From Actinomycetota bacterium (GTDB taxonomy: Bacteria; Actinomycetota; Coriobacteriia; Anaerosomatales; JAUXNU01): a stretch of DNA of 64,000 nucleotides. Positions within the stretch are counted from its first letter, which is position 1. Each line of letters opens with the position of its first letter. Positions 2,798-46,187 of the stretch are shown piece after piece. The DNA is taken from positions 1-64,000 of the forward strand of contig JAUXNU010000054.1 of the NCBI GenBank assembly GCA_030682655.1, read 5' to 3'. The translations under genes were made by a program, and so were the position numbers. The notes beneath the pieces are model-generated. The model had not been told where the DNA came from, made no database searches, and saw only the letters and a program-made list of their open reading frames with translations.

Positions 2798-4365
2798 CCT
2801 ACGACGACAGGGACCGGCGCACGGACGGCGATCCGACCATCGGACGCGGTCTGAGCGACCCCGCCGCAGAGCACGTCCCCCCCGCCTCCAACAGGCGCAA
2901 GATGGTTCTGCTTGCGATACTCCTCGCACTACTGGCTCTCGTCGGGTATTCGACCTACTACTATCTCGTGAACAGGAGACTTCCGATCCCGCGGTTGTCG
3001 CGGGGAGAGGAAGAGGTTGCTCCTCCAGAGTACCTGTACTCGATCTCGGGCCCCCGGGGCGAAGACGCTCTCACGCGACCTGTCGGTGTGGCCGTGGGGC
3101 AGAACGGGCTGGTCTACGCGACGGATACTCTCGCGCGGACGATCCGGGTCTTCACCACCCAGGGACAATACAGGTTCTCGTTCAACACAATTGAGGACGG
3201 TCTGAACTCCACTCTCGGCACTCCCGCTCACCTCGCAATCGACGCGCAGGGCAGCGTCTACGTCTCGGACAGACGCCGGAGGGCCATCTACGTCTTCGAC
3301 AAGAACGGCAAGTACCTGCGCAAGATCGTCCCTGCGGGCGAGGACGCGAAGAGCTGGAGCCCGCTCGGGATGGCGTTTGACGCCGAAGGCAACCTGTATG
3401 TGACCGACGTGGGAGTTACCACCGAGCATCGCGTGATTGTCTTCGGTGGCTCGGGCACGGAGATCCTGCGTTTCGGCTCCACCGCGCAGGCCAACCAGAT
3501 GGTGGACGCTCCCGGAAAGTTCTACTTCCCGAACGGTGTCGTGGTGGCGCCCGACAACAAGCTCATGGTGGGGGATAGCAACAACCGTAGGGTGCAGGTG
3601 TTCTCAACTGGCGGCCACTTCGGCTCTCTCATCCGGACGGGAGGCATCCCGCGTGGCATGGTGATCGACCCAGAGAAACGTCTCTACGTGGTCGACGCGC
3701 TCTCTCACATGGTCGACGTGTTCGACCTTGAGGGAAAACGGATCGTGAGCTTTGGCAGGGAGGGAGTGGGGCCGGGAGAGTTCCGGTACGCCAACGATAT
3801 CTCTCTCGACAAGGCCGGGCACATCTACGTCTCCGACCGCGAGAACCATCAGATACAGGTCTGGGCATGGCCGCAAGAGGGCTTCGAGGTGCCGCCAACG
3901 CCCGAAACGCCGGCCCAATGGGCGCTGTGTCTCTCGCCACTCCTGCTGATACCACCGCTGTTCCTCCTGCGCCGAAAGCGCTGGGTGGTCACCGCCGACT
4001 TCATCGACGCACTTGCCGAGGAACACGCCGTGGGGACGATGCAACGCCGCCGGTGGAAGTGGGTGACCACACACACCGTGTGGGCGGCCCTGGATGGACG
4101 CGTCGCGGAAGACATCGACCTTGGCGAGCTCGTGCGTGCCGAGACCCACTCGGACTCCGACGCGCGCGATCTCGTCGAGCGGATGGGTGTCGGCTACGAG
4201 ATGGCAGCACTGCTTGTTCTTGCAAAGCGGGCGAAGCGGATATGCACGCAGGACGAGCGCCTGGCCTCTCTGGCTGCGACGCTCGGAGCAACCGTGTATG
4301 ATGCACACAGCTTCATGCGGAAGTACGGCGATTCACAAGCGGACAAGCCAAAGGGACGTGAGTAG
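2794..4365 (+). CDS. Two-TM protein: external NHL propeller plus internal PIN-like domain
   Basis: A 523-residue protein; its GTG start overlaps the previous stop (GTGA). TM1 lies at about residues 36-58. It is followed by roughly 300 residues of NHL-type repeats with recurring GVAV, LYVTD and IYVSDR motifs that build a beta-propeller. TM2 is at about 375-391 (LCLSPLLLIPPLFLL), with positive residues (RRKRW) just after it. The final ~130 residues would then be cytoplasmic. They contain TADFIDALAEE and a late TQDERLASLAATLG segment, a spacing that resembles PIN-like nuclease folds. That assignment is tentative, since only part of an acidic triad can be matched. NHL proteins accompany multihaem cytochromes in other metal-respiring bacteria. 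This is the last gene before the formate-dehydrogenase promoter. Confidence 0.7.
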   Translation: MTYDDRDRRTDGDPTIGRGLSDPAAEHVPPASNRRKMVLLAILLALLALVGYSTYYYLVNRRLPIPRLSRGEEEVAPPEYLYSISGPRGEDALTRPVGVAVGQNGLVYATDTLARTIRVFTTQGQYRFSFNTIEDGLNSTLGTPAHLAIDAQGSVYVSDRRRRAIYVFDKNGKYLRKIVPAGEDAKSWSPLGMAFDAEGNLYVTDVGVTTEHRVIVFGGSGTEILRFGSTAQANQMVDAPGKFYFPNGVVVAPDNKLMVGDSNNRRVQVFSTGGHFGSLIRTGGIPRGMVIDPEKRLYVVDALSHMVDVFDLEGKRIVSFGREGVGPGEFRYANDISLDKAGHIYVSDRENHQIQVWAWPQEGFEVPPTPETPAQWALCLSPLLLIPPLFLLRRKRWVVTADFIDALAEEHAVGTMQRRRWKWVTTHTVWAALDGRVAEDIDLGELVRAETHSDSDARDLVERMGVGYEMAALLVLAKRAKRICTQDERLASLAATLGATVYDAHSFMRKYGDSQADKPKGRE

Positions 4366-4428: not shown

Positions 4429-4850
4429 GTCGCTTGTAACTCGCGGTTACAGCCGCAACTCAGGTTCGGAAACCAGGCGATGACACATATGGGACGACGT
4501 TCCCGAGCTGAGATACCTACAGCCTGAGGCCAGGGGATCGCAGCCGATAGGGTGCAATCGGAAACGAGAGTGCCTCCCGTTTGGAAAGGGAACGTGCGCA
4601 GGGCAGTCGGCCGGGACATCCGGCTGACGTGTTAAGCGCACGACACAGGGGGGCGCAGACAGATGAAGACCGGTTTCGGACAGGCTCACGGTATCGCCTG
4701 GCTGATATCGGTTTCTTCGTGCCTACGACTTGTGGGTACCGGGCCGGAAGGAGGCGACCGAGACCGGTGACGTCATGCGCGGACCCGAAGGTCCGCGTGC
4801 AGGCGCGGAGCCGCGAACGCGACTCCGCGACATTGAGAAGGGAAGAGGGT
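4429..4850 (+). promoter_or_regulatory. Long structured 5' leader upstream of formate dehydrogenase
   Basis: This non-coding stretch lies between the promoter and the Tat-signal ATG and has no convincing reading frame. It folds by eye into several hairpins. The arms 4606-4614 and 4620-4628 pair (9 bp with one G-U, loop GACAT). This hairpin sits inside an outer stem formed by CGTGCGC (4593-4599) and GCGCACG (4636-4642). A CGCGGACC/GGTCCGCG stem with a CGAA tetraloop spans 4778-4797. CCGAT/ATCGG also pair near 4543-4560. Nested stems are typical of riboswitches or leader RNAs. I could not match it to molybdenum-cofactor, cobalamin or cyclic dinucleotide riboswitch consensus elements. It ends in a ribosome site (GAAGGGAAGAGG) before the ATG at 4851. 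Confidence 0.45.
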
Positions 4851-7800
4851 ATGGGAAAGAGACACAGAGAAGAAGGGGAGTCCGGGCTCAGCCGGCGTGA
4901 TTTTCTCAAGACCGGAGCTGCAGTAGCCGGTGCCGGAGCGGCGGGCTTCGAGTTCGCTGTAGCACCTTCAATGGCCGTCGCTGCTGAGGTCGATGAGACA
5001 TATCACACTACCTGCCCGTACTGTTCCGTCAGCTGTGGACAGCTTGTCGACGTCGATGCTTCCGGCACCGTCCTCGATGTCTATGGCGACCACATGTCTC
5101 CATTCAATTCCGGCGGGTTGTGCGCGAAGGGTGCCGCCGGATATCAGCTAGTGACGAACTCGCGCCGAATAGGCTCACAGGCGGGTTCGCACCCGGTCAA
5201 CCCGGCGTTCGCTTACGATGGCAATTACACAGATGGTGTCGCGTACAAGCGCACTTGCGACGCCAGCGGTGTCGACAGCGGCTGGGGCAAGATGGGCCTT
5301 ACGGACGCTCTCGGCGAGATCGGGACTTCCATGGTTACCGCACGCGGTGCTGTGAACGCAGCCAACGGCTACAACAGCAAGTCCGTGGCATTCTTCGGCT
5401 CGTCGCACATGAACAACGAGCAGAACTACGCGTACCGCCGCCTGATCGCTCAGTTCGGAACCTCGAACGTCGAGCATCAGGCCCGTATTTGACACTCGTC
5501 CACGGTGGCCGGTCTGGCCGCCGCATTCGGACGAGGCGCCATGACGAACAACTGGACCGACCTCGGCAACTCGTCGCTCTTCGTGGTCATGGGCGCCAAC
5601 CCGGTGGAGAATCACCCGGCGAGCATGGCGCACATCAACAAGGCACGCGGCAAGGGCGCGAAGCTCATCGTCATCGACCCGCGCAAGACCCGCACCGCGC
5701 TTCAGGCCGATCGCTTTATCCGTATCCGCCCCGGCACCGACATCGCCTTCATCAACGGCGTAGTGCGCGGGATCATCGCGGACATGGAAGCGCGCCCGAG
5801 TGACGGTCCGGACGGGGTTCGAGACCAGTTCTACAAGTTCCTGGACCAGACGGGCAGCGGCACGTTCTTCACCGACGGTGACGATGCGACGGGGAGCACT
5901 AGCACGGCGGTTCCTGGCAACTCGAAGTACTCCGATGCCCGTTTCATCTTGAACGGCGCTGGCACGGATTACGAGCGCGAGACTATCGTCGCAGCCACCG
6001 GATTTCCGGCCGTTGGCGGAGAGTCCGCCAACACGATCATCTCGAACTTCCCGAAGAAGGCTGCAAACGTCTTCGGCAATGTGAACACGGTGTACAACCG
6101 GCTCAAGGCGCACGTCGCACCATATGACACTGCGACGGTCGCGGATATCTGTGGCTGCACTGAGGCGGACATCGCGTACGTCATCGACGCCTACATTCAG
6201 AATGGCCGTTGTTCGAGCGTCGGCGACACTCTCTCCTCACAGGATCCGCTCGCGACGGGCTACAAGTGCACCACGATGCTGTACGCGATGGGTCTCACGC
6301 AGCACACGCACGGCGCCCAGAACGTCAAGTCGTTCACGGTCCTTCAAACCCTTATGGGCAACATGGGACGTGCCGGCGGAGGCATCAACGCGCTGCGCGG
6401 TATCCACAACGTTCAGGGTTCGACGGACATGGGCAACCTGTACCATCTGATTCCGTTCTACTCGGGCAACCCGTCGACCATGACCTTGGCCGACCCCGAC
6501 GCGTTCGGCAAGTACATGAACACCCTGTGGGGTGTGCCCGTGAGTGGAACAGGTACCCGTACGACGATGAACAACTCCTATGATGACGCCTACAACACGG
6601 CGGCGATGGGTCTGCAGCAGCGTGGTTTCATCAACATGACCTACAACTTCTTTGGTAGCCCCGAGTGGATGAAGGATGCGTCCGGCAACCTGACGACCGC
6701 CAATCGCGCGTTTACCAATGCTCTCTACGATCTGTGGCCCAAAACCAACGGTGATGATCACGTCACCATGTTCCGCAAGATGGCGACCAGCGACATCAAG
6801 GCCGCAGTCGTCTGGGGACAGAATCCTGCGGTCACCGAACCCAACCAAAGCGCGATCCGCGCCGGTCTCGAGAACCTCGACACCCTCGTGGTCGTCGACA
6901 TGTTCGAGAACGAGACGGCCGCTGTGAAGCGCAAGGCCAACAGCGCGACGTACCTTCTTCCCGCGTGTTCGCACGTCGAGGAAGCCGGTAGCGTTGCAAA
7001 CTCCGGTCGCGTGCTTCAGTGGCGTGAGCGTGCCACCCTTCCGAAGGGCAACAGCAAGGCGGATATCGAGCTCCTTTTCCGTATGGCGAAGGCATTCGAT
7101 GATGCGGGCGCGTTCTCGCATATCACGGCCCAGTGGACCGACCAGGGCAAGGCATGGGTCAACGCCTACACCACGCTGTACGGCGAACGCTACGGCTGGA
7201 CGCCCGGTGCCACAGCGTTCGAGGACGCGAGCGGCACTGCCAACATCTGGACCGGGGCCGAAACCGCGCCTCGTGCGGACGGCACGGTGCATGGCTCGGA
7301 GTGGGTCTGCGAGCAGATCTACCGCGAGTTGTGCACGCCGGCGACCGGAACGTCGTGGCTGTACACGGGTGCCTACAACACCACTCGGGGGGTCAACAAG
7401 CACCCGGGTCAGGTCGACTGGCAGACCGCCAACCGCTCCAAGAGCCGAAACAACGCCGATCCGAACTCCACGCTGGCATATCCCAGCTGGGGCTACGCGT
7501 GGCTTGTCAACCGTCGTGTCCTGTACAACAACGCCGATATCCCCGGAGATATCGGGGACTTCTACATGGGGCCGGATTCGGTCGCTCGTCTGTTCGTCAG
7601 CACCAACACGGCGACTCTCAACTACTCGCGTTGGTACCGCACGATCAACCGTCTGGCCGACAAGCCCGATGTCGCCCTTGGCGGTCCAACCGCCCAGCAC
7701 ATCCTACCTGGCCGCTTCCCGGCGCACACCGAGCCCTACGAGACCCCAAGGGCCGACCTGGCCGCACTCTGGGGTCGCAACACGAAGGGCACCGGTGCGT

Positions 7801-8294
7801 GGGACCTGCTCAAGTCCGACACGCTTGCTGCTGCGGGTCGCGTTGGCGATCTCGACGCTTCAGGATTCCCGCTCGTTCTCACGACGATCCGTTGTGTGGA
7901 GCACTTCCAAGGCGGTCCGATCACACGCAACAACCCCTGGAACGTCGAGGCGGAACCCTATCCCTGGATCGAGATCAACTCTCTCGATGCCGCGGCTGCG
8001 GGTATCGCGACAGGCGACTGGGTCAATGTGATCACTGCTCGCTCCAACAGCACGACGGACCAGGAGGGCCGGACCACCGGTGCTCCGTTCGCCGATGGCT
8101 TCCTGGCGCGGGTCGGAGTCGGTCTACAGTCCAACCAGCGAGTCGGACGCGGGGTGGTAGCAATACCCTGGCACTGGGGCGACAGAGGGCTCTCGACGGG
8201 CTCTCGCGCCAATGACCTGTGCATCGATGCGGGTGATGCGAACACCGTGATTCCCGAGTACAAGGCCTGTCTGTGCAAGATCGAGAAGGCATAA
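4851..8294 (+). CDS. fdhA: Formate dehydrogenase-N type catalytic subunit, selenocysteine at residue 214
   Basis: A molybdopterin-bis(guanine dinucleotide) oxidoreductase of 1147 residues if the in-frame TGA at 5490-5492 is read as selenocysteine. It oxidises formate to CO2. A twin-arginine signal (SRRDFLKTGAA) shows folded export by Tat. A [4Fe-4S] site follows (CPYCSVSCG, then GGLCAKG). The UGA sits in HQARI-U-HSSTVAGL, the place where FdnG-type enzymes carry Sec, and GRGAMTN and LIVIDPRKTRTA continue the family pattern in the same frame. The C-terminus (PWHWGDRGLSTG, VIPEYKACL) is the dinucleotide-binding domain. It is longer than E. coli FdnG (about 1015). The ATG at 4851 has a good ribosome site; an in-frame extension upstream lies in the leader. 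An automated caller would split it at the UGA. Confidence 0.93.
5503..5523 (+). promoter_or_regulatory. SECIS hairpin for UGA 5490-5492
   Basis: CGGUGGCC (5503-5510) pairs along all eight positions (one G-U) with GGCCGCCG (5516-5523), leaving a GGUCU loop. In E. coli fdhF, the GGUCUG of the SECIS loop occupies codons 7-8 after the UGA. Here GGU CUG occupies exactly codons 7-8 after the UGA. SelB binds such loops to direct Sec insertion. Confidence 0.85.
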
Positions 8295-40055: not shown

Positions 40056-40364
40056 ATGGACTACTACAGGACACTACAGATTTCGCGCGACGCCGAACCC
40101 GAGGTGGTCGAGCGTGCATACAAGGCGCTGTGTCTGAAGTACCATCCCGACGTCGTTGCGCCCGAACACCGCCCCGCTGCGACGGCGCGCATGCAGCGCA
40201 TCAACGAAGCGTATCGAGTCCTCTCCGACCCGAAGGCGAGGAGACGATACACTGAGACGCTGTCTCCTGTCGCGGAAGGCGCGAGCGCGTGGGAGCAGTT
40301 CATGTCCAAAGGACTACTCGGGTTGTGGTTCGATCAGGCGTTCACCCGCTCGCGCGTCCGCTAG
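40056..40364 (+). CDS. J-domain protein
   Basis: A 102-residue protein made of a J domain (YYRTLQISRDAEPEVVERAY, the HPD tripeptide in KYHPDVVAP, and INEAYRVLSDPKARRRY) plus a ~30-residue tail. It should stimulate an Hsp70 ATPase but lacks the zinc and client-binding domains of DnaJ. It is probably co-transcribed with the penicillin-binding protein. It ends four bases into the convergent DUF362 gene. Confidence 0.88.
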   Translation: MDYYRTLQISRDAEPEVVERAYKALCLKYHPDVVAPEHRPAATARMQRINEAYRVLSDPKARRRYTETLSPVAEGASAWEQFMSKGLLGLWFDQAFTRSRVR

Positions 40365-41515
40365 CGGGATCGGCGCGCCCGTGTCATGAGGCGTGCCATC
40401 GGCGGCGTCTTCAAGCCGATGACCTGCGGGGGACACAGCTCCTGGCAGCAGTAGCACCGGATGCACGTGTCGCGGTCGAATGTGGGGCCGTTCGACCCCA
40501 CGACGATTGCATCGACCGGGCAGCTCTCAGCGCAGGTACCGCATTTGGTGCAACCTGCGGCGCTCTCCAGAACCGGCCGGGCGAGTGTCCACCCACGCAA
40601 GGTGGTCTTAAGCCATGGGGGCATGCGACGCCCGACGTCGCGAGCGGGCAGGGCGAACGCCTCGGGCGCCAGGCGATGCCAGTCTTCGCCGACGACCTGC
40701 ACCTCCTCGGCAGACCGAGGGCCCATACCTTGGCGGGCTGCTGCCGCGTTCGTGTAGACCTCCATGGGGTCGAAGCCTGCCATCGCAGACGCAACGACGT
40801 CGAGGGCGACGCAATCGGCCGAAGCGATCAGGGCGCCGATCTCCCTGGGACTGCCGCCTGCGGGGCCGTCTCCCTCCATGCCCACGACTGCGTCCATGAC
40901 CGCTAGCGCCGGTTTGCACGCCTGCATGAGATCCACTAGCATCGCGCCGAAGTCTTCACGTTCCGGCACCTTGAGGTGGTACTGGGCCTTCTCGAGCCCG
41001 GGTACGCACCCGAAGAGGTTCTTGACCGCGCCAGTGAACATCATGAACCCGTGGGTCTTGAACTTCGGGACCGAGATCAGGACGTCGGTCTCGACGACCG
41101 CCCGTCCGAGAGTGAACGAGCCGTAGAGCGAATGAGCGACCCCGGTGGTTCGGACGACGTCGTCGTCGAAGAGCAGGAGGGGTACGTCCTCCTCGGCACA
41201 CACCGTGGCGATCCCGGAGGTCCGGAAGATCCCGCGGACCATGCCCGCAGTGTTGGGTCCCCCGGGGCTGTCGCCAACCGTGACGATCCCGCCCGCGGCG
41301 CGCGCCGAGCGGATCAGAGCGCGAACCAGTTCAGGATGGGTCGTCACCGCCCTCTCGGGCTCGGCTTTGGCGAGCAAGTTGACCTTGAGAAGCACCTTCT
41401 GGCCTGGTGCCACGAACGCCGACATGGTCCCGAGCGGAGCCATGGCGCGCTCGAGGGACTCCTGCAGCTCCGCAGCGTCGTACGTTGAACAGCGCGAAAT
41501 CGAGACCGTACTCAT
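40361..41515 (-). CDS. DUF362 protein with C-terminal 2x[4Fe-4S] ferredoxin domain
   Basis: A 384-residue protein. Residues 1-310 are a DUF362 domain (VLLKVNLL, VGDSPGG, DVLISVPKFKTHG, VKNLFG). The C-terminus has CTKCGTCAESCP and CIRCYCCQELCP, a bacterial-type dicluster ferredoxin. DUF362 proteins are widespread in anaerobes but have no settled biochemical role. It is the last gene of the ferredoxin/selenoprotein operon, starting 15 bases after its predecessor. Electron transfer to a sulfur or selenium redox partner is an inference. Confidence 0.85.
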   Translation of the reverse strand: MSTVSISRCSTYDAAELQESLERAMAPLGTMSAFVAPGQKVLLKVNLLAKAEPERAVTTHPELVRALIRSARAAGGIVTVGDSPGGPNTAGMVRGIFRTSGIATVCAEEDVPLLLFDDDVVRTTGVAHSLYGSFTLGRAVVETDVLISVPKFKTHGFMMFTGAVKNLFGCVPGLEKAQYHLKVPEREDFGAMLVDLMQACKPALAVMDAVVGMEGDGPAGGSPREIGALIASADCVALDVVASAMAGFDPMEVYTNAAAARQGMGPRSAEEVQVVGEDWHRLAPEAFALPARDVGRRMPPWLKTTLRGWTLARPVLESAAGCTKCGTCAESCPVDAIVVGSNGPTFDRDTCIRCYCCQELCPPQVIGLKTPPMARLMTRARRSR

Positions 41516-41530: not shown

Positions 41531-41884
41531 TCAGGCAGTACTTGCAGGCGATTCCGCCGAGGACAACTTGTCGCCAACGGCCCGGAGGATGGCCGGGTAG
41601 GACACGGCGCCGTCATACACGGGGACTCCGTCGATGACTGTGACAGGGTAGAGCAATCCGCGCGCCTCGATCTCATCGATCAGGGCACCGCGCTCGGAGC
41701 GAATCTCCTCTTCCTGCACGTTCACGTACTCGATGCGCGCGCTTCCTTCGAAGCGGCGGTCCATCTCCTGGCGGATGATGGCCGTGATCTCCTCCGGAGA
41801 CCAGGAGGGGCCTCAACCCCCACTGAAGCATGCGGTCTGGGCAGGCAGGTCGAAGACCTCGACCAGGATGGCAGGTTCAGTCAC
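41531..41884 (-). CDS. Predicted thioredoxin-fold selenoprotein (CX4U, UGA at 41813-41815)
   Basis: Read with the in-frame UGA as selenocysteine, this is a 117-residue protein. The predicted order is strand (ILVEVFDLP), redox loop C19-FSGG-Sec24, helix (SPEEITAIIRQEMDRRF), strand (ARIEYVNV), helix, then LYPVTVIDG with a possible cis-proline and a final strand and helix. This order is thioredoxin-like and resembles YuzD/DUF1462 proteins (a Cys-rich loop followed by a PSS-like turn). Both sides of the UGA are in one frame. GTG 41884 has GCGAGG five bases upstream and is 13 bases after the ferredoxin stop. Taken as two ORFs, neither half has the redox site intact. A hairpin lies downstream of the UGA. 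The function is unknown, likely persulfide, selenide or metal-stress chemistry. Confidence 0.75.
41785..41803 (-). promoter_or_regulatory. SECIS-like hairpin for UGA 41813-41815
   Basis: On the minus strand UGGUCUC (41803-41797) pairs with GAGAUCA (41791-41785), seven pairs with one G-U, around the loop CGGAG. The loop begins 16 bases after the UGA and has G at its second position. Both agree with published rules for bacterial SECIS elements (loop 16-37 nt from UGA, G in its first two positions). Confidence 0.6.
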
Positions 41885-41897
41885 AAGTACCTCGCTC

Positions 41898-42101
41898 TCA
41901 GCCCAGATGGACGGCGCCGCCGGCACACACTCGAGCACATACCGCGCATCCGCGGCACAGCTCATCAACCACAGAATACCCGTTTGCCCCAGGATACGGG
42001 CCTCCATCAAGGGGGACGATAGCGCCAGTGGGGCATACCCGGCGCGAAGGGCATCCAGGCGATCTGTCACATCTCTCGTTGTCGATAGTCACAGTGGTCA
42101 T
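41898..42101 (-). CDS. Small ferredoxin-like protein
   Basis: A 67-residue protein with two cysteine groups. The second, CRGCAVCARVC, is a standard [4Fe-4S] motif followed by an alternative tail (AGGAVHLG). The first, CDRSPGCPSRRVCP, is loosened (CX5CX5C), so its cluster, if any, is atypical. ATG 42101 has AAGGAG 12 bases upstream. It is the promoter-proximal gene of the ferredoxin/selenoprotein/DUF362 operon and likely supplies or accepts electrons for that system. Confidence 0.8.
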   Translation of the reverse strand: MTTVTIDNERCDRSPGCPSRRVCPTGAIVPLDGGPYPGANGYSVVDELCRGCAVCARVCAGGAVHLG

Positions 42102-43951: not shown

Positions 43952-43980
43952 TTGAGTCATAGGGCGGGTTCTTATATCGT
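43952..43980 (+). promoter_or_regulatory. Possible promoter of the NapC-type multihaem gene
   Basis: TTGAGT (43952-43957) and TATATC (43973-43978) are 15 bases apart; TATCGT, 17 bases away, is an alternative -10. The spacing is short for TATATC, so this is a weak call. A start near 43986 would give a ~70-base leader to the ATG at 44055. Confidence 0.35.
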
Positions 43981-44054
43981 TGCGAGTTAGGCGGACGCAT
44001 GTGCCGTCTTTCACGTGCGTATGCTGGCCCCGAGGTGAGCAAGGAGAGGTGTGT

Positions 44055-46187
44055 ATGGTCAAGATCTCGCTGGCCGGGTTCAAGGACCCGGTCCGACGGC
44101 CGCGGTACATCATTTGGACGGGCGTTGTCGTCCTTCTGTTCGCGGCCTTCGTCGTCGTTGCCCTGGGGGTGACATCGACCTACTGGTTCTGCGCGAACGT
44201 GTGTCACAAGGTGCAGGACGACTCTATCTCCGCCTACAACCGCTCGGCGCACTCAAAGATCTCGTGTCTGGCGTGCCACATGCCTGTCCAAGCGGATCCG
44301 ATCACGTTCGTGATTCACAAGGCGGAGGCCGGTATTCTCGGCGGCATTCACACCCTCACGAACAACTATGAGAATCCGCTCAATCCCGAGTCCCACGTGG
44401 CGCTGGCTTTGATGCCGGAGAAGCAGTGCACCCAGTGTCACTCGGAGAACCGTGAGATCACTCCGGGACCTGGTATCATCATCAACCACGAGATCCACTC
44501 GGAAGAGGGCGTCCACTGCACGCTTTGTCACAACCGTGTCGCGCATGACGAAAGCGGCGACTGGGAACCCATCACCAAGAACCCAAAGACCGGAGAACTA
44601 GCCTACAAGCACGCTGACTTCATGGAGATGACCGCGTGTTTCCGGTGCCACGGTCTTGAGAGCGGCGCGAAGGCGCCCGGTGCGTGTGCTAAGTGCCATC
44701 CTGCGGACTTCGAGCTCAAGCCCGAGAGCCACTTCAAGGGCGACTTCTATCCACGCGGCCACGCGGACATGGCGCTCACCGAGATCAAGCGTGTAGAGGA
44801 AGCCGTGGCCGAGGGTGCCCACGGAGAAGAGGGCGGAGAGGCCACCGAGGGCAAGAGCGAAGAGGCCACCAAGGGCGAGGAAGGCTCCGAAGAGGCCACC
44901 GAGAGCAAGAACGGCGCGTCTCTCCTCGGCCCCGAGAAGGCCTATGCTTCCGGTGGCGGGGCGGAGAGCGAGTGGGTTGCGGCAATGCCCCCGCTGGCTC
45001 AGGTGAACTACTGCTCTACGTGCCACAAGCAGAGTTTCTGCGACAGCTGCCATGGCATGGAGCTCCCGCACCCCAAGGAATTCGTCGACAAGTCCCACCC
45101 CGAGCTCGTGAAGACGAAGCTCGACAAGTGCGACATGTGTCACCAGGTCACCAAGACCGGCTTCAAGTTCTGCAACGATTGCCACCATGGCACGAAGTCG
45201 AACTGGAAGTACGATCCCGCGGTCGTCTGGGAGACCCAGCACGCCAAGACGGTCACCGCCAACGGCGTCGATCTGTGTCTCGAGGCATGTCACAAGACGA
45301 CGTTCTGTTCGGATTGCCACACCAAGAAGAAGCCGGTGCCGTCCTCACACACCGCCAAGGACTGGTTGCGCAAGAAGGCGGAGGCGCTCGGCGTCCATGC
45401 CGAGGGCTTCAAGGCCCAGCCTACTTCGTGCGAGGTCTGCCACGGCCCGGACGAGCCGAACGGCAACAAGTTCTGCAAGGGTTGCCATGCGCTCGAGATG
45501 CCGCACCAGCAGGAGTTCAAGGACTTCCATGCCAAGACCGGTCGCAGCAACCGGAAGGTCTGTGCGAACTGCCACACCTTCAAGGAGCTTTGCAGCGACT
45601 GTCACCACGAGGGTGCTGTCAACGGTACGCCTTGGCTGAAGGTCCACGGCCCGATCGTCAACAAGAACGGTGGTACAGGCTGTCTCGAGAAGTGTCACAA
45701 GCAGGACTTCTGCGTCGACTGCCACACCTCGAAGAAGGTCGTTCCGGTCTCGCACAAGGTGAAGGGCTGGACGAAGCGTCCATCTCTGAACAAGCCCGCC
45801 ATCCATCCCTCCAGCTTTGAGAAGCAGCCCGACGGCTGCACCTACTGCCACGGCAGCGGGGGCGCGAAGGCCAAGTTCTGCCAGAGCTGCCACAAGCTTG
45901 AGATGCCGCACCCCGATGGCTACGGTGCCGAGGGCAAGGGCAATGGTGGCGTTCACCAGGCAGGCTTCAAGAACAAGAGCCTCAAGAAGGCGACCTGTGA
46001 GAACTGTCACAGCACGCGGTTCTGCAACAAATGCCACCACGGGTACGACGGTGCGAAGCCGCCTTGGGTGAACTACCACCCGGCTACGGTCAAGAAGTCC
46101 GGCGCTGCGCCCTGCTTCGAGTGCCATGAGGAGACGACCTGCTCGTACTGCCACGTACGTGAGGCTGGCAAGTACCTCAAGAACTAG
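44055..46187 (+). CDS. NapC-anchored multihaem cytochrome with up to 24 haem sites
   Basis: A 710-residue protein. The N-terminus resembles NapC/NirT quinol dehydrogenases: one membrane helix (IIWTGVVVLLFAAFVVVALG) followed by a first haem at CANVCH and CLACHM. I count 21 CXXCH and 3 CX3CH (CANVCH, CLEACH, CLEKCH), so 24 possible haems. A glutamate-rich low-complexity segment (about 245-290) separates the NapC-like end from the larger haem domain. Regular pairs of closely spaced CXXCH (CHKQSFCDSCH, CHKTTFCSDCH) point to internal duplication. It could accept electrons from menaquinol and pass them to the exterior. AAGGAGAGG precedes ATG 44055. Confidence 0.9.
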   Translation: MVKISLAGFKDPVRRPRYIIWTGVVVLLFAAFVVVALGVTSTYWFCANVCHKVQDDSISAYNRSAHSKISCLACHMPVQADPITFVIHKAEAGILGGIHTLTNNYENPLNPESHVALALMPEKQCTQCHSENREITPGPGIIINHEIHSEEGVHCTLCHNRVAHDESGDWEPITKNPKTGELAYKHADFMEMTACFRCHGLESGAKAPGACAKCHPADFELKPESHFKGDFYPRGHADMALTEIKRVEEAVAEGAHGEEGGEATEGKSEEATKGEEGSEEATESKNGASLLGPEKAYASGGGAESEWVAAMPPLAQVNYCSTCHKQSFCDSCHGMELPHPKEFVDKSHPELVKTKLDKCDMCHQVTKTGFKFCNDCHHGTKSNWKYDPAVVWETQHAKTVTANGVDLCLEACHKTTFCSDCHTKKKPVPSSHTAKDWLRKKAEALGVHAEGFKAQPTSCEVCHGPDEPNGNKFCKGCHALEMPHQQEFKDFHAKTGRSNRKVCANCHTFKELCSDCHHEGAVNGTPWLKVHGPIVNKNGGTGCLEKCHKQDFCVDCHTSKKVVPVSHKVKGWTKRPSLNKPAIHPSSFEKQPDGCTYCHGSGGAKAKFCQSCHKLEMPHPDGYGAEGKGNGGVHQAGFKNKSLKKATCENCHSTRFCNKCHHGYDGAKPPWVNYHPATVKKSGAAPCFECHEETTCSYCHVREAGKYLKN

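Follow-up and report, generated by a model that had tools for sequence, protein, structure and literature searches.

A predicted selenocysteine form of the DUF1462/YuzD family encoded beside a ferredoxin gene in Coriobacteriia

Analysis of a 64,000-nt stretch of DNA from an actinomycetotal bacterium (the window) revealed a minus-strand gene with one in-frame UGA that, judged from its sequence, almost certainly encodes a genuine selenoprotein with actual selenocysteine (Sec) insertion at that codon (Table 1). By profile and fold, the product is a divergent Sec form of DUF1462, not YuzD itself; it adds a Sec-bearing variant to a known thioredoxin-fold family, one that was absent from the lists checked, including the available part of the inventory cited below. 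Homology screens seek Cys/UGA pairs and would therefore overlook this additional selenoprotein family, which is almost devoid of Cys forms. In addition, the adjacent ferredoxin provides a first redox-partner clue for the uncharacterised DUF1462/YuzD family.

Table 1 Features of the selenoprotein locus in the window
Feature	Position	Strand	Remarks
YuzD-like selenoprotein CDS (predicted)	41531-41884	minus	117 aa; GTG start 41884-41882; TGA stop 41533-41531; DUF1462/YuzD-like thioredoxin fold
Sec-UGA codon (Sec24)	41813-41815	minus	TGA in 63/63 homologues, never TAA, TAG, TGC or TGT
Cys19 codon	41828-41830	minus	invariant; likely resolving partner of Sec24 (C-x4-U)
Bacterial SECIS hairpin UGGUCUCC-GGA-GGAGAUCA	41785-41803	minus	loop begins 17 nt after UGA; conservation and covariation
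Shine-Dalgarno-like GAGG, weak	41890-41893	minus	5 nt before GTG; read from sequence
67-aa two-cluster ferredoxin (CDRSPGCPSRRVCP ... CRGCAVCARVC)	41898-42101	minus	co-directional, 13 bases upstream; conserved partner
DUF362 protein with C-terminal dicluster ferredoxin domain	40361-41515	minus	next gene downstream; accessory, 15/63 loci only

Reading frame, conservation and the SECIS hairpin

The two halves of the gene lie in one register across the TGA at codon 24 and form a single frame of 117 codons, as an earlier sequence-only reading had proposed; its coordinates for the gene, and the 13-base gap that it placed after the ferredoxin gene (stop 41900-41898), were both correct. The standard code yielded only short ORFs on either side of the UGA in the ORF listing; standard gene calling would split the gene there, as had been anticipated. 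The GTG start position is common to relatives, and the ribosome site that had been claimed corresponds to the weak GAGG of Table 1. Cys19 and Sec24 together make up the C-x4-U loop in which the UGA had been placed.

Of 300 Coriobacteriia genomes searched in six frames, 63 contained the protein. At the level of the order, the gene was present in 61 of 69 genomes, and in 48 of the 51 of good quality, with two further carriers elsewhere in the class. In all 63 homologues the frame crosses a single TGA, always at this codon, and none had Cys, TAA or TAG there; within the order, the 61 gene-bearing genomes of the 69 all have UGA, with no Cys form found. Homologues had been expected to carry either Cys or UGA at residue 24, and Cys was found at this column in distant relatives only, namely the YuzD-type structure 1XG8, ArsD and an ArsD-like protein (L153). 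Third positions changed about twice as often as first and second positions on both sides of the UGA, indicating coding constraint, and mean column identity of the protein downstream of the UGA (A1) was 69%. Residues invariant in the alignment comprise an Asp, Cys19, the Gly before Sec, Sec24, Gly-Pro, a Trp, two Glu, a Tyr, the Pro of YPVT and a Gly. No relatives were found among plasmids and viral contigs, and a GTDB-wide pattern scan returned only Coriobacteriia-type records, with patterns that follow the sequence of this subfamily and therefore have limited reach for Cys forms in other phyla. Since the gene is near-universal among the good genomes of an environmentally widespread order, Sec is probably basic to the energy or redox metabolism of the order.

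The hairpin downstream of the UGA fits bacterial SECIS rules, as the earlier reading had stated, but its dimensions differ: the stem measured 8 bp and the UGA-to-loop distance 17 nt, not 7 bp and 16 nt. Its loop is GGA and its energy -9.3 kcal/mol. The bSECIS rules specify a loop of 3-9 nt with G in the first two bases, a stem of 4-16 bp, a spacing of 16-37 nt and an energy of -7.5 or lower (PMC13188914), and the hairpin at 41803-41785 falls within all four. Energy alone is insufficient as proof, since 3.1% of the other UGAs in these loci match or beat it.

Codons four to nine after the TGA (TGG TCT CCG GAG GAG ATC) were almost without synonymous change, with TCT in 59/63 homologues, CCG in 60/63, the two GAG in 57/63 and 63/63, and ATC in 61/63. 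Third positions in these six hairpin codons differed in 0.6% of comparisons, compared with 68% in the three codons before them and 56% after (flanking range 52-68%), and Ser codons elsewhere in the gene are mostly AGC, TCG or TCC, unlike the TCT of the hairpin. The frozen codons reflect selection on the RNA on top of that on the protein. In a set of 73 sequences that also covered two lineages from outside the class, pairing held in 99.3% of stem cells, and 18 cells were changed on both sides, against a shuffle mean of 1.9; the covariation signal was abolished when the partner strand was slid. The closing pair of the stem was C-G in 60, U-A in 10 and A-U in 2, representing compensatory changes from C-G to U-A and A-U, and homologues with other UGA spacing retain the same make of hairpin (UCUC AGGCU GAGA). 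A chance origin of the hairpin is ruled out by this conservation, that is, by the TGA in 63/63, the near-frozen third positions and the 18 double-change cells.

Selenocysteine machinery of the source genome and its relatives

The source genome contains SelA, SelD with its own in-frame UGA, and tRNA-Sec (anticodon UCA). Full-length SelB was not seen in it; at the start of contig C216 (G000:C216:2-218) stand the C-terminal 20 residues of SelB, with tRNA-Sec (selC) immediately after them, and the assembly therefore breaks inside selB. The absence of SelB from this genome was rejected on account of this tail, and a search for selA, selB, selC and selD, which the earlier reading had named as a check, thus found all four, selB as a tail cut by the contig end. 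The selB-selC region was also lacking in several sister MAGs and may assemble or bin badly. A second Sec gene in the window, likewise noted earlier, was identified as a formate-dehydrogenase-type gene (4581-8294, plus strand) that encodes a twin-arginine signal and contains a single in-frame TGA (ARIUHSS); it is preceded by a Mo/W cofactor riboswitch (4489-4607), and confirms Sec use in the source genome.

Among other genomes, one 99% complete member of the order (G023) has neither SelB, full-length SelD and tRNA-Sec nor the selenoprotein gene, which favours Sec at the UGA. Less in keeping with this, two genomes (G062 and G092) have SelB, SelD and tRNA-Sec and lack the gene, and neither selB nor tRNA-Sec was detected in eight genomes that retain the UGA gene. 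SelD with its UGA is present in four of the eight (G048, G052, G102 and G146), and for this reason the missing genes are probably an assembly gap. In two drafts (G076, 96% complete, and G118), the UGA gene and its SECIS are retained and SelB, SelD and tRNA-Sec were not found. In other genomes, RF01852 matches scoring about 45-50 bits were rejected as tRNA-Sec, most of them being tRNA-Ser.

Family, fold and distant homologues

The window protein scored 28.8 bits against Pfam DUF1462 (PF07315; gathering cut-off, 25), and all 58 aligned relatives matched this family (E up to 0.1). Among 14 control genomes, Pfam DUF1462 was found in B. subtilis only. A PDB search with the single sequence gave noise only, and a profile search was needed to reach 1XG8 (S. 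aureus SA0798, YuzD type; E 2.7e-5), on whose CxxC Cys19 and Sec24 fall. The AlphaFold model (pLDDT 77, pTM 0.69) is weak in the C-x4-U loop (pLDDT about 62); Foldseek placed 1XG8 first (prob 1.00), followed by thioredoxins and ArsD. DUF1462 and ArsD have both been placed in the thioredoxin clan (PMC3091736). The kinship with YuzD that the sequence-only reading had suggested is thus upheld by a score above the Pfam cut-off and by the best fold match.

A profile search of other classes of the phylum revealed distant homologues, nearly all with UGA at the Sec site, with which UGA and SECIS are shared and in which the loop takes the forms CSGGUGPSWS, C-x3-U (SCGFGUGS) and CRGGGUAP. NCBIfam 20.0 contains no model that matches the window protein or these homologues, except for one sub-threshold match.

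Several further loci deserve mention in their own right. L153 (G523:C6, about 2933-3290) is a candidate ArsD/DUF1462-related selenoprotein (GAGGUGPVCEPADCGP) with Sec placed differently from that of the window protein; it has a good hairpin after the UGA (GCCCGC-GGACU-GCGGGC), it lies within an ars operon (arsD-arsR-arsA-arsA) that also includes a transporter, and it is followed by a zinc-ribbon gene. L151 (G345:C25, minus strand, about 2965-3250) encodes a DUF1462 protein above the Pfam cut-off with TGA in a UxxC motif (GURSC), like the first Cys of YuzD, and a simple hairpin model found no SECIS-like hairpin there. In family f50 (L149, L150 and L152, in three genomes), the gene order is thioredoxin, Sec homologue, zinc-ribbon protein (FmdB-like). 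In family f44 (L156, L162 and L164), the Sec homologues directly follow a ThiI/NFACT-R_2 PP-loop gene, and in two of the three loci (L162 and L164) also a 2-thiouracil desulfurase-type gene (PF04463, tested for L162); f44 loci are possibly a sulfur or selenium transfer cluster.

Gene neighbourhood, possible function and comparison with known systems

In the syntenic locus, the ferredoxin precedes the selenoprotein gene in 52/63 cases, a divergent chemotaxis gene is present in 50, and DUF362 follows in 15/63; an adjacent ferredoxin was not seen in 11/63 Coriobacteriia loci. The combination of ferredoxin, selenoprotein and DUF362 to which the earlier reading drew attention is consequently not the conserved unit, and the trio was rejected as a functional unit because of the rarity of DUF362. 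The first motif of the ferredoxin is C-x5-C-x4-CP, which we take to be of 7Fe-like cluster type, and the second is a full C-x2-C-x2-C-x3-C. Ferredoxins of the same unusual type also adjoin the distant homologues of two other lineages; one of these has the ferredoxin upstream of the homologue, and the other has it downstream. In a third lineage a thioredoxin precedes the homologue, in the place of the ferredoxin, and in a fourth the homologue follows a ThiI-like protein, with thiouracil desulfurase as well in 2/3 loci examined. Near the ferredoxin-selenoprotein pair, the window also contains a divergent gene for a 735-residue multihaem cytochrome (43980-46187, plus strand), whose position is conserved in most of the order.

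Because the recurring neighbours of the gene are electron donors, we favour a redox function. In this proposal, Sec24 would be the nucleophile and Cys19 the resolving residue; both would lie in the active-site loop, opposite the cis-proline of YPVTVIDG, and would cycle between selenol/thiol and selenenylsulfide. Such cycling is fairly probable. The upstream ferredoxin would stand in for a thioredoxin reductase as the source of low-potential electrons, a route to which gene adjacency in several lineages points with somewhat less assurance. The pair would thereby work as a reductase module under anaerobic conditions, acting on a disulfide, a persulfide or some oxidised substrate, with the DUF362 protein as an occasional accessory. 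A ferredoxin-reduced selenol/thiol mechanism may, on the whole, be considered a reasonable expectation. More tentatively, these proteins could constitute an undescribed, phylum-wide Sec group of DUF1462/ArsD type in anaerobic Actinomycetota, characterised by C-x3/4-U, almost no Cys forms and a flavin-free, dedicated route from a two-cluster ferredoxin to a selenenylsulfide.

A rather unlikely alternative is that the selenoprotein carries metal(loid)s or sulfur/selenium in the manner of ArsD, with Cys19 and Sec24 binding a soft ion or a persulfide/perselenide and handing it on to a partner. This idea is kept alive by kinship with ArsD, whose Pfam model weakly matches 45/58 relatives, whose structures are among the fold matches and whose C-x4-C-G-P aligns on C-x4-U-G-P, and by the sulfur-handling genes (ThiI-like PP-loop protein and thiouracil desulfurase) beside the homologues of another lineage; L153, which has Cys in the Sec column and a UGA of its own close by, belongs to an ars operon. 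However, the paired Cys of ArsD are missing and the residue before Cys19 is variable, which leaves three-thiolate binding unavailable, no ars gene is adjacent in the window or was seen in the syntenic loci of relatives, and the neighbour that recurs beside the gene is a ferredoxin instead of an ATPase. We consider it improbable that Sec has a role that is neither redox cycling nor carriage, for instance a peroxidase-like or Fe-S-handling one with the ferredoxin as client: the usual neighbour is indeed a small Fe-S protein, and our search of the open-access literature on the structured relative YuzD gave no function, but an invariant pair of Cys19 and Sec24 together with a conserved cis-proline-like Pro is what usually marks thiol/selenol redox proteins.

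Very improbable, finally, is that the UGA is an ordinary stop, separating two short genes or marking a decayed one, or that it specifies another amino acid through a code change or leaky readthrough. Although the standard code gives only two short ORFs and SelB, SelD or tRNA-Sec went undetected in a few genomes, TGA is never replaced by TAA or TAG in the 63 homologues, the downstream protein is conserved, the hairpin codons are fixed at synonymous sites and the Sec machinery is present; a stop or decay was rejected on the invariant TGA and the frozen codons. Against a code change, genes of the window, this one included, terminate normally at UGA.

Known thioredoxin-fold selenoproteins (SaoT, SELENOW-like, UXX-star and TsoB; PMC13188914) resemble the window protein, as far as the available part of that source describes them, in being small and of thioredoxin type, with Sec near Cys and a bSECIS right after the UGA; unlike in the present case, the same part of this 2026 inventory of 119 prokaryotic selenoprotein families contains no PF07315 entry and no CxxxxU motif. 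A selenoprotein paired with DUF1462 or YuzD was not found in the open-access literature, beyond which papers may exist. ArsD (PF06953) shares the thioredoxin-like fold, the C-x4-(C/U)-G-P loop and a similar C-terminal half, with Sec on the Cys of its conserved Cys-Gly-Pro, whereas the window protein scored 14.6 bits against a cut-off of 27 for this family, lacks the vicinal Cys pair that together with a third Cys serves As(III) in ArsD, and lies outside any ars operon. The closest resemblance is to DUF1462/YuzD (PF07315, 1XG8), with which it shares the thioredoxin-type fold and the C-terminal (L/F)YPVTVIDG...DG block and on the second Cys of whose CxxC the Sec falls; it differs from that family in having Sec for Cys, the loop variant C-x4-U in place of the YuzD-type C-x2-C, G-P-S-W after Sec, and a co-encoded ferredoxin.
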